Positions 33,316-34,887 of a DNA stretch of 64,000 bases are shown piece by piece. Position numbers and translations under genes: made by a program. Below the pieces are notes generated by a model. It was not told the DNA's origin and searched no databases. It saw nothing but the letters and a program-made list of their open reading frames with translations. The stretch covers positions 3,224,001 through 3,288,000 of the forward strand of contig NZ_CP090347.1 of the NCBI RefSeq assembly GCF_021398715.1, read 5' to 3'. How positions within the stretch are numbered: the stretch's first letter is position 1; the number at the start of each line of letters is the position of its first letter. Source of the DNA: Microbacterium binotii (lineage in GTDB: Bacteria; Actinomycetota; Actinomycetes; Actinomycetales; Microbacteriaceae).

Positions 33316-34887
33316 ATGCGTACATTCGCAAAGCGAGTGCTCCTCGGAGCGCTCATCGGCGGCGGCATCGCCATCGCCGGAGCAACGGTCGCCAACGCGG
33401 CCGAGACAGACGGGCAGGACGGCCTGCTCTCGGGCACCCAGGGCCTGATCAACGTGGCGGTCCCCGTCACGGTCAGCGGCAACGCCATCTCCCTGCTGGG
33501 AGACTCCGCGTCGCAGGATGCGGCGACCGAGGTGGCCGCGCCCACGGCCAGCACGGGCTCGAACGAGACGTCAGGCACCGACGGGATCGCCAGCGGCACT
33601 CAGGCGCTGGTCGATGTGACGATCCCCGTCACCGTCAGCGGCACGAGCATCTCGCTCACCGGCGACAGCACGTCGTCCGGCGCCGAGACGGCTCCCGCCG
33701 CGCCGACATCGGATGCGGGATCGCCCGCCACCACCGACGGAACCGACAGCGTCGCCGGCGGTACCCAGGTGGTCGCACCCGTCACCGCCCCGGTCACGGT
33801 CGGCGGCAACGCCATCTCGCTGCTCGGCGACAGCACGAGCAGCGACGCCGCCACGGCACCCGCATCCACCGGCTCGGGTAGCGCGGGCGGCGCGATGACG
33901 GACGGCACCGACGGCATCCTCGGCGGCACGCAGGCGGTCGCCCCGATCGCGGCTCCCGTGACCGTGGGCGGCAACGCCATCTCCCTCACCGGGGACAGCA
34001 CCACCACCGATGCCGCCACGGCACCCGCGTCCACCGGTTCGGGCAGCACCGACGGCGCGATGACCGGCGGCTCCGACGGTGCCGTCAGCGGCACCCAGGT
34101 CGTCGCACCCGTCACCGCACCGGTCACGGTCGGCGGCAACGCCATCTCCCTCACCGGAGACAGCACCACGACCGACGCCGCCACGGCGGCCGGCACCACC
34201 GGCACCGGCGGCACCGACGGCGCGATGACCGACGGCACCGACGGCATCCTCGGCGGCACGCAGGTGCTCGCACCGATCACCGCTCCCGTCACGGCGGGCG
34301 GCAACGCCATCTCGCTGACGGGCGACAGCACCTCCACTGACGCCGAGACGGTCGCTCCGACCGGCAACGGCACGGTCCCGGCGCTCACCTCGGGTGAGGA
34401 CGGGATCCTCGGCGGGACGCAGCTGGGCCTTCCCATCACGGCGCCGATCACCCTCGGCGGCAACGCCATCTCGGTGACCGGAGACTCGACCACCGAGAAC
34501 CCGGGAACCACGCCGGGAACCCCCGGCGAGCCCGGCACGCCTGGTGAGCCCGGTACGCCCGGTGAGCCCGGTACGCCTGGTGAGCCCGGAACGCCTGGTG
34601 AGCCCGGAACGCCTGGTGAGCCCGGAACTCCTGGTGAGCCCGGAACTCCTGGTGAGCCCGGAACGCCTGGAACGCCTGGTACCCCCGGCACCCCGGGAAC
34701 GCCCGGTGCGAACGGAAGCCCCGCTGCGGTGACCGGCGTCGTCAGCGCCGGCGCCCGGACGGCTGACGGATCCCTCGCGACGACGGGCGGAGCGGATGTG
34801 GCGGGCCTCGCGCTCGGCGCCTTCCTCCTGGCAGGGTTCGGCGCGCTCATCGCGCTGATCGCCCGCCGCCGTCACGCTCAGATCTGA
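33316..34887 (+). CDS. Wall-anchored protein: seven chaplin-like repeats, collagen-like stalk, LAxTG signal
   Basis: This 523-residue secreted protein has a signal peptide (residues 1-28/29, VANA-A). Seven repeats of about 55 residues follow, each with the core SGTQ..APVTAPVTVGGNAISLTGDS. The pattern follows the chaplin domain (SGN..P..PVNVCGN..), but its cysteines are Gly or Ser. A collagen-like Gly-X-Y stalk comes next: eight GEPGTP units and then GTP triplets. LATTG, a hydrophobic helix and an RRRH tail follow, which is a class E sortase sorting signal. AGGAG lies upstream of the ATG at 33316. The architecture suggests a surface or aerial-interface amyloid/adhesin; no role is proven. Confidence 0.85.
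   Translation: MRTFAKRVLLGALIGGGIAIAGATVANAAETDGQDGLLSGTQGLINVAVPVTVSGNAISLLGDSASQDAATEVAAPTASTGSNETSGTDGIASGTQALVDVTIPVTVSGTSISLTGDSTSSGAETAPAAPTSDAGSPATTDGTDSVAGGTQVVAPVTAPVTVGGNAISLLGDSTSSDAATAPASTGSGSAGGAMTDGTDGILGGTQAVAPIAAPVTVGGNAISLTGDSTTTDAATAPASTGSGSTDGAMTGGSDGAVSGTQVVAPVTAPVTVGGNAISLTGDSTTTDAATAAGTTGTGGTDGAMTDGTDGILGGTQVLAPITAPVTAGGNAISLTGDSTSTDAETVAPTGNGTVPALTSGEDGILGGTQLGLPITAPITLGGNAISVTGDSTTENPGTTPGTPGEPGTPGEPGTPGEPGTPGEPGTPGEPGTPGEPGTPGEPGTPGEPGTPGTPGTPGTPGTPGANGSPAAVTGVVSAGARTADGSLATTGGADVAGLALGAFLLAGFGALIALIARRRHAQI
34525..34668 (+). repeat. 18-bp tandem repeat, eight units (collagen-like coding)
   Basis: Eight consecutive units of GGTGAGCCCGGAACGCCT, with a few synonymous changes, encode GEPGTP within the wall-anchored protein. 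Four 9-bp GTP-coding units follow to 34704. In-frame repeats of this type gain or lose units by slippage, so stalk length may vary between strains. Confidence 0.92.

Follow-up and report, generated by a model that had tools for sequence, protein, structure and literature searches.

Organization of the locus

The window (the whole stretch of 64,000 nucleotides that was analysed, from the assembly of Microbacterium binotii) contains a gene coding for a multi-repeat, chaplin-like protein of 523 amino acids with a predicted wall anchor, located about 32 kb from the end of the 3.29-Mb single-contig assembly, and, directly upstream of it, a second gene (the partner gene). A folded RNA element is predicted between the two. 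The features of the locus are the following:

32187..33218, + strand: partner gene, coding for 343 amino acids with a signal peptide, Val/Pro/Thr-rich repeats, a Pro-rich linker and the C-terminus FDTDVAPD (ORF reading)
33204..33227, + strand: 5' arm of the closing stem of the intergenic RNA, composed of the last codons of the partner gene, its stop codon TGA (33216-33218) and 9 further nucleotides (folds, rare-codon bias)
33228..33246, + strand: hairpin 1 of the intergenic RNA (fold)
33254..33269, + strand: hairpin 2 of the intergenic RNA (fold)
33271..33286, + strand: hairpin 3 of the intergenic RNA (fold)
33288..33309, + strand: 3' arm of the closing stem, containing the Shine-Dalgarno sequence AGGAG of the chaplin gene (33303-33307) (fold, arm-permutation test)
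33316..34887, + strand: gene for the multi-repeat chaplin-like, predicted wall-anchored protein, 523 amino acids (ORF translation, Pfam)
33316..33402, + strand: signal peptide, sequence MRTFAKRVLLGALIGGGIAIAGATVANAA (boundary set by eye; similar signal peptides in relatives)
33412..34500, + strand: seven chaplin-like repeats, residues 33-395 (profile matches, predicted beta strands)
34512..34708, + strand: Gly-X-Y, Pro-rich stalk with (GEPGTP)8 (TRF, PF01391)
34774..34788, + strand: LATTG sorting motif of class E type (sequence; conserved in the alignment of relatives)
34789..34884, + strand: hydrophobic helix and Arg-rich tail of the sorting signal (model helix at residues 492-522)

The initial annotation had described at 33316-34887 an open reading frame with seven repeats, a Gly-X-Y stalk, LATTG, a helix and a final Arg, and reading of the sequence bears out this architecture, with a signal peptide in front of the repeats. 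The repeats start at residues 33, 87, 142, 197, 252, 307 and 360, have a length of 53-55 residues and are detected at the DNA level by TRF as a 165-nt array (score 723). Their 38-residue cores share a mean identity of 66% (range 45-84%), with conserved Gly, Gln, Pro and Asp columns in the alignments. The protein does not contain any cysteine, and the position of the lost cysteine is occupied by Gly or Ser in the repeat alignment, as had been annotated. The Gly-X-Y run of the stalk extends over 69 residues and is matched by the Pfam Collagen family with 57.9 bits (cut-off 27.2, E 8.4e-16), in agreement with the collagen-like (GEPGTP)8 stalk proposed previously, and the C-terminus is composed of LATTGG, a hydrophobic stretch and RRRHAQI. 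A structure model of the repeats (pLDDT 75.3, pTM 0.71) predicts beta strands throughout; Foldseek searches with the models gave best matches that all fell short of E 0.001.

Relationship of the repeats to chaplins

The relationship to chaplins claimed in the initial annotation is sustained by profile searches. The chaplin family PF03777 (ChpA-C) matches the protein with 59.5 bits (cut-off 21, 2.9e-16), a score summed over seven stretches, and a canonical profile, built from 41 domains taken from genomes with strong PF03777 matches, gives 78.3 bits against the whole protein and 10.3-18.6 bits against each repeat alone, while the best of the shuffled controls (reported for 344 of 500 residue-shuffled and 270 of 500 column-shuffled sequences) reached 5.8 bits. 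When 772 repeats of 121 proteins were compared with the canonical domain using hhalign, the probability was 97.2% over 28 columns. The alignment of all seven repeats is confined to positions 1-29 of the 41 canonical ones (GVLSGN..qvPvhvPVNvCGNtvdvig); the repeats lack the last third of the canonical domain, where its third GN motif and second cysteine are located, and the first GN motif reads GT in the repeats of the window, so that the full chaplin domain with three GN motifs is not present. The hydropathy (GRAVY) of the cores is 0.12-0.39 and that of the whole repeats 0.07-0.28, compared with a mean of 0.51 (range -0.10 to 0.81) for the 41 canonical domains. Proteins from Microbispora and Nonomuraea, with eight repeats and 14 cysteines, are intermediates between both forms, and one of them (P0110) has a GGNQVVAPITAPI core. 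To judge from these comparisons, the protein of the window is a divergent, cysteine-free, part-length chaplin.

Loss of the cysteine would be compatible with fibre formation, because ChpE, which lacks cysteines, is reported to form fibrils all the same (PMC3079736). Together with the profile match and the sorting signal, this observation could fit a typical long chaplin that serves short chaplins as a scaffold within a hydrophobic coat of amyloid rodlets, although we consider this unlikely: the C-terminal third of the domain is missing from the repeats, and a review states that rodlets are formed with just one of the two amyloid regions of ChpH, namely that close to the C-terminus (PMC7766987). 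In addition, the genome gave no further chaplin locus in a PF03777 search, which is insensitive to divergent chaplins, since the window's own repeats escape it: in a one-domain search (E 0.001) of 296 genomes of the class, 66 matched, and the genome of the window did not, its own repeats being missed too. Canonical short chaplins sought with PF03777 were likewise not found in this genome, but 14 control genomes were also without a match. A search of the genome using the repeats as query revealed no chaplin locus beyond this single one. Aerial hyphae are not known from the genus Microbacterium, which also counts against a long chaplin of the Streptomyces type.

Distribution and variation among relatives

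A protein search identified 292 relatives (E <=0.001); 120 of them were listed, and the name "chaplin" or "DUF320" is carried by at least 21 of these (hand count). Multi-repeat chaplin-like proteins are present in 74 of the 119 genomes of the genus, and chaplin-like genes had been noted in the non-sporulating Arthrobacter chlorophenolicus by a 2013 review (PMC4255298). The proposal of a new kind of surface protein made in the initial annotation was thus not upheld.

Variation was analyzed in the best 80 of 283 matching loci, 65 of which pass a filter for a complete frame and a sorting-like motif. Among these 65 relatives the repeat number varies from 4 to 10, seven being the commonest (24/65). 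LAxTG is found in 57 of them, a share that is valid only for this motif-filtered subset, and 61 have no cysteine after residue 28. Runs of at least six Gly-X-Y triplets are present in just 18 of the 65 and absent, by the same criterion, from 47; the collagen-like stalk was therefore rejected as a defining feature. Other relatives have other Pro-rich spacers in its place (e.g., P0002, P0004 and P0116), and it is therefore read as one version of a spacer.

Two peculiarities of the sampled records should be mentioned. In four loci (L047, L054, L068 and L081) the frame seems to be shifted in or near the Pro-rich repeat stretch and the sorting signal is lost, maybe because of sequencing errors or slippage, and two records titled Fulvimarina and Planococcus (L033 and L111) carry a locus of Microbacteriaceae type, their contigs being probably misassigned.

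Sorting signal and sortase

The class E type sorting signal proposed for the C-terminus (LATTG, helix and Arg) is conserved in an alignment of 48 sequences, in which G491 is invariant and L487, A488 and T490 are at least 90% conserved. The genome also codes for the class E sortase that the initial annotation suggested looking for: it matches NF033747 with 237.8 bits (cut-off 160), its catalytic TxTC reads TMTTC and its nearest PDB entries are SrtE-type enzymes. Neither of the outcomes that the initial annotation had named as refuting it was thus obtained. The sortase gene is located next to a glutamine-amidotransferase-like and a PASTA-repeat gene (identified by eye). The class E sortase model matches 115 of the 119 genomes of the genus, 112 of them above the cut-off, and this is therefore a general enzyme of the genus and not specific to the operon.

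A second sortase-like protein is encoded in the same genome near 2.12 Mb (L002:1183-2118, - strand) and matches the class E profile with 58.5 bits, under the cut-off. Its TxTC seems to read MTARG, so the catalytic cysteine is probably absent, and its gene adjoins that of a phosphate-ABC-type ATPase (identified by eye) and a gene for a secreted protein.

The partner gene

The partner gene is located directly upstream of the chaplin gene in all 75 loci with enough upstream DNA (80 loci, five of them too short), although two of these, L041 and L079, stem from a single record and are alike. The adjacency holds also where dnaB was not found nearby, e.g., in Agromyces, Agrococcus and Leifsonia. In the genus, a profile of the partner matches 83 of 119 genomes: chaplin and partner genes occur together in 73, the chaplin gene only in one (G079) and the partner only in 10. 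Neither Pfam nor NCBIfam gave any match over cut-off with the partner, and the 33 partners aligned with that of the window are 23-35% identical to it.

The C-terminus of the partner is -PD in 75 of 75 readable loci, preceded by different residues (SPD in 58, TPD in 14, RPD in one and CPD in one of 74 loci; APD in the window's own), and its stop codon is TGA in 74 of 74. The codons used at this end are strongly biased. The last Pro is encoded by CCT in 49 and by CCC in 26 of the 75 loci (window included), and never by CCG, while elsewhere in the same genes CCT accounts for 6.5% and CCG for 46.8% of the Pro codons; the Ser codon before -PD is TCT in 29 of 58 loci, compared with 5.3% elsewhere in the same genes (binomial figures for this codon bias ignore relatedness). 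The sequence TCYCCYGACTGA is complementary to the ribosome-binding region of the chaplin gene, which is TCAGTCAGGAGA-like in many loci. The biased last codons suggest why -PD is fixed, namely because its nucleotides pair with this region.

A hydrophobic segment is present near the C-terminus of the partner in 14 of 74 loci, in several of them followed by an HRAWVRR-like sequence before -SPD, so some partners may be membrane-anchored.

The predicted intergenic RNA stem

The gap between the partner and chaplin genes measures 75-140 nt, and in the folds inspected a closing stem, formed by the partner stop region and the chaplin ribosome-binding region, encloses two or three hairpins. Evidence for this stem comes from permutation of its arms among 42 loci less than 62% identical in the arms, a test that needs no alignment between them: the arms of the same locus pair with -27.9 kcal/mol and permuted arms with -22.7 kcal/mol (z -9.9), and when only the positions after the stop codon are considered the values are -14.7 and -12.8 kcal/mol (z -5.4). 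None of 5000 permutations reached the own-arm values in either test. When 200 random 38-mers of the same locus were used for comparison, at most 5% of them paired as well in 69 of the 75 loci (0 of 200 in the window), and the same held in 65 of 75 loci when the comparison was made with 118 further frames of the window that end in TGA (ORFs called mechanically, of which many are not genes). A narrower swap test, restricted to the positions after the stop but including all 75 loci, gave a weaker result (median rank 0.35, top 10% in 15/75, KS p 0.003). The Shine-Dalgarno core pairs with the stop region at a probability above 0.5 in 67 of 74 loci.

At positions +1 and +3 to +6 after the stop codon all four Watson-Crick pair types occur across loci, as compensatory change would give, although single-sequence folding favours pairs by construction. 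The Ser codon of the partner also varies together with the motif of the distal arm: for GGAGA against GGGGA, the numbers are 26 to 1 with TCT and 13 to 8 with TCC (Fisher p 0.006, relatedness ignored; 48 of 52 loci, four with other motifs being excluded). L160 and L164 belong to other families of the order, and in these two loci only 1.3% and 0.3% of random stretches pair as well, while pairing is weaker in a third (L161, 13.7% of random stretches as good). There is thus evolutionary support for a stem between the partner stop region and the chaplin ribosome-binding region in Micrococcales.

RNAalifold did not recover the closing stem from a plain MAFFT alignment of 68 loci (three pairs, -0.48 kcal/mol), which we attribute to length variation and misalignment. 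The window itself is a poor example, with C-A mismatches in the Shine-Dalgarno part of its stem. In a longer context its Shine-Dalgarno sequence pairs elsewhere, with a probability of 0.04 to the stop region (0 to 0.07 per base), and the core GG is paired in all four folded contexts, but in one of these the pairing is to a CUCCU that lies farther upstream. An Rfam search of 13 loci gave no family over gathering score except two tRNA hits, and in the window (33100-33400) only chance-level hits were obtained. No description of the partner or of an RNA element for chaplin operons was found in searches of open-access papers; both look undescribed and, in this respect, more novel than the chaplin-like protein itself. 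Neither of them is mentioned in the initial annotation.

Loci with a different central domain

Of the 10 genomes that contain only the partner, nine (all but G039) were read. In six of them (G028, G045, G062, G065, G074 and G115) the gene behind the partner also codes for LAxTG and for a signal peptide of similar sequence, but its product was not matched by the chaplin repeat profile; three of these six proteins were searched against Pfam, and no family was found over cut-off. The signal peptide of one of them (L145) is identical at 28 of 30 residues to that of a chaplin gene (L005), and two of these proteins are weakly matched by the partner profile (5e-9 and 1e-7), perhaps through shared composition. 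In these six loci the pairing between stop and ribosome-binding regions is beaten by just 0-2.5% of random stretches. The exchange of the central domain indicates that the partner is not specific to chaplin repeats, and suggests that leader, partner, signal peptide and anchor act as a display chassis. Two further partner-only genomes contain a mere remnant of the start of the chaplin gene (G022) and a partner frame without a normal end (G021).

The alternative central domain (L146:2247-3908, - strand, L149:1597-3255, + strand, and similar loci) contains a repeat of GLVDxLVGDSIxDPLxGDDG type in long copies, for which Pfam gave no match over cut-off. On contig 15 of G115 (L152 and L153) two partner-like genes are found about 30 kb apart, and downstream of one of them lies a display gene whose centre is different.

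SPD-tailed genes in Streptosporangiaceae

A gene with an SPD tail is also present in Streptosporangiaceae-type genomes (the family being taken from homologue names), where 119 of the 120 listed homologues (of 297 in all) end in SPD, and in six genomes it adjoins chaplin genes. Of 296 genomes of the class, 12 match a profile of this partner (two of them weakly), and all 12 belong to that family. No PD-ended frames were found in the available flanks of ten other Streptosporangiaceae loci (L135-L144), though G155 has a weak match to the partner profile on another contig, close to chaplin matches. No sequence relation between the two partner families was detectable beyond signal peptide, position and tail.

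In the six Streptosporangiaceae loci, a fraction of 0.38 to 1.0 of random stretches pairs as well with the ribosome-binding region as the stop region does (in L166 and L167 the automatic choice of start is probably wrong, upstream of MRTWVK). Pairing is no better than random in this family, simple masking of the ribosome-binding site is therefore not supported, and the element may have another role there. Three loci (L156, L163 and L165) show, when folded, a pairing between CCUGAC in the stop region and a GUCAGG about 28-35 nt before the start.

In the Streptosporangiaceae-type partner (alignment A4) a motif around AEAMAGRxVDGLTSQ is conserved and the end, TAADDPSFSPD, hardly varies; the source names shown are hypothetical protein or alike.

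Alternative explanations for the conserved region

The constancy of the partner end could be due to selection on the protein, if the -SPD tail were kept because this peptide end is recognised, e.g., by a factor for secretion or assembly; the RNA pairing would then be a side effect. The universal -PD of the 75 loci and the SPD of the listed Streptosporangiaceae-type homologues would fit such a role, and one locus (L160) alters the Asp codon and the stop (GAT TAG) while retaining SPD. A recognised peptide would not account, however, for the bias of synonymous positions to the rare CCT and TCT, nor for the better pairing of the non-coding positions after the stop with their own locus, so that we give this explanation a small chance. 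A similarly small chance is given to the conserved stretch being a DNA site that serves the chaplin gene, either as an internal promoter or as the target of a regulator. In its favour, six Streptosporangiaceae-type loci hardly vary over about 40 nt around the stop, synonymous sites included. In Micrococcales, in contrast, the sequence just after the stop varies but remains complementary to the distal arm, a pattern not expected of a DNA site, and a scan limited to sigma-70 type promoters did not find any promoter-like site. That the repeats and the Gly-X-Y stalk are a low-complexity spacer displaying nothing particular is very unlikely, because, although a repeat number of 4 to 10 and a replaceable centre would be compatible with it, the conservation of the repeats is far above that of shuffles and extends to their Gly, Gln, Pro and Asp columns.

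Proposed mechanism

The interpretation towards which we lean is a two-gene surface-display operon, in which a secreted partner and a sortase-anchored, seven-repeat chaplin derivative are coupled by an RNA stem. Both genes would lie on a shared transcript, where the stem would mask the chaplin ribosome-binding site until a ribosome arrives at the partner stop codon; on finishing the partner, this ribosome would open the stem and free the chaplin start, and the pair would be made in order and in proportion, the chaplin protein with, and just after, the partner. Once exported, the partner may help in the export or assembly of the chaplin-like protein, and the partner-first order would suit a sticky, beta-rich protein that depends on an extracellular escort or assembly factor. 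The class E sortase of the genome would probably link the protein to the wall via LATTG, and the Pro-rich spacer would raise the repeats off the wall. The repeats most likely adopt a stacked beta structure and would give rise to a fibre or coat on the cell surface, with a role in adhesion or surface hydrophobicity; amyloid and hydrophobic-coat functions would be carried over by analogy with Streptomyces.

More tentatively, and with the chances for and against about evenly balanced, the locus could represent a previously undescribed class of actinobacterial surface-display cassette. In such a cassette, a structured RNA would dictate the end codons of the secreted partner and tie translation of the partner to that of a protein anchored by sortase, while signal peptide and anchor would be conserved and the display domain (chaplin part-repeats or others) exchangeable. 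Its outline would be common to the non-filamentous Micrococcales and the filamentous Streptosporangiaceae.

Comparison with known systems

Chaplins have been studied for their role in raising Streptomyces hyphae into the air. The widespread occurrence of a cysteine-free, part-length, multi-repeat form in single-celled actinobacteria suggests that the chaplin module predates aerial growth or has a more general use. According to the published descriptions, the long chaplins of Streptomyces carry two full domains, each of which comprises three GN motifs and, some exceptions apart, two Cys (PMC13251363, PMC7766987). Like the long chaplins ChpA-C of Streptomyces (PF03777), the protein of the window is predicted to be secreted and has chaplin-type repeats and a C-terminal sorting signal, whereas it differs from them in having seven part-length repeats, no Cys and one GGN motif in most repeats, and its locus adds the partner gene with the RNA stem. 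Similar in form are the chaplin family proteins of Microbispora and Nonomuraea (P0110, P0111, P0117 and P0120), which are likewise multi-repeat proteins (eight repeats by the profile) and share the type of core seen in P0110, a C-terminal hydrophobic anchor and, in six genomes of that family, the SPD-tailed gene upstream; in contrast, they have fourteen cysteines, the pairing to the ribosome-binding region is not above random and their partner is not detectably related. ChpE also lacks cysteines, although it is a single short domain and is not anchored. Outside Streptomyces, CwpA and CwpB of Actinoplanes are comparable as wall proteins of the class E sortase type, although these hydrophobic, class E sortase-dependent proteins were concluded to be without chaplin domains (PMC13251363).

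The partner and its RNA stem predict that the partner is made first and in proportion, in a manner comparable to accessory factors of other bacterial fibres. In general translational coupling, an RNA stem hides a ribosome-binding site and the upstream stop codon lies in the masking stem. The locus resembles this arrangement, with the partner stop in a stem with the chaplin ribosome-binding site, and this stem offers an explanation, in terms of nucleotide pairing, for the otherwise puzzling C-terminus of the partner.
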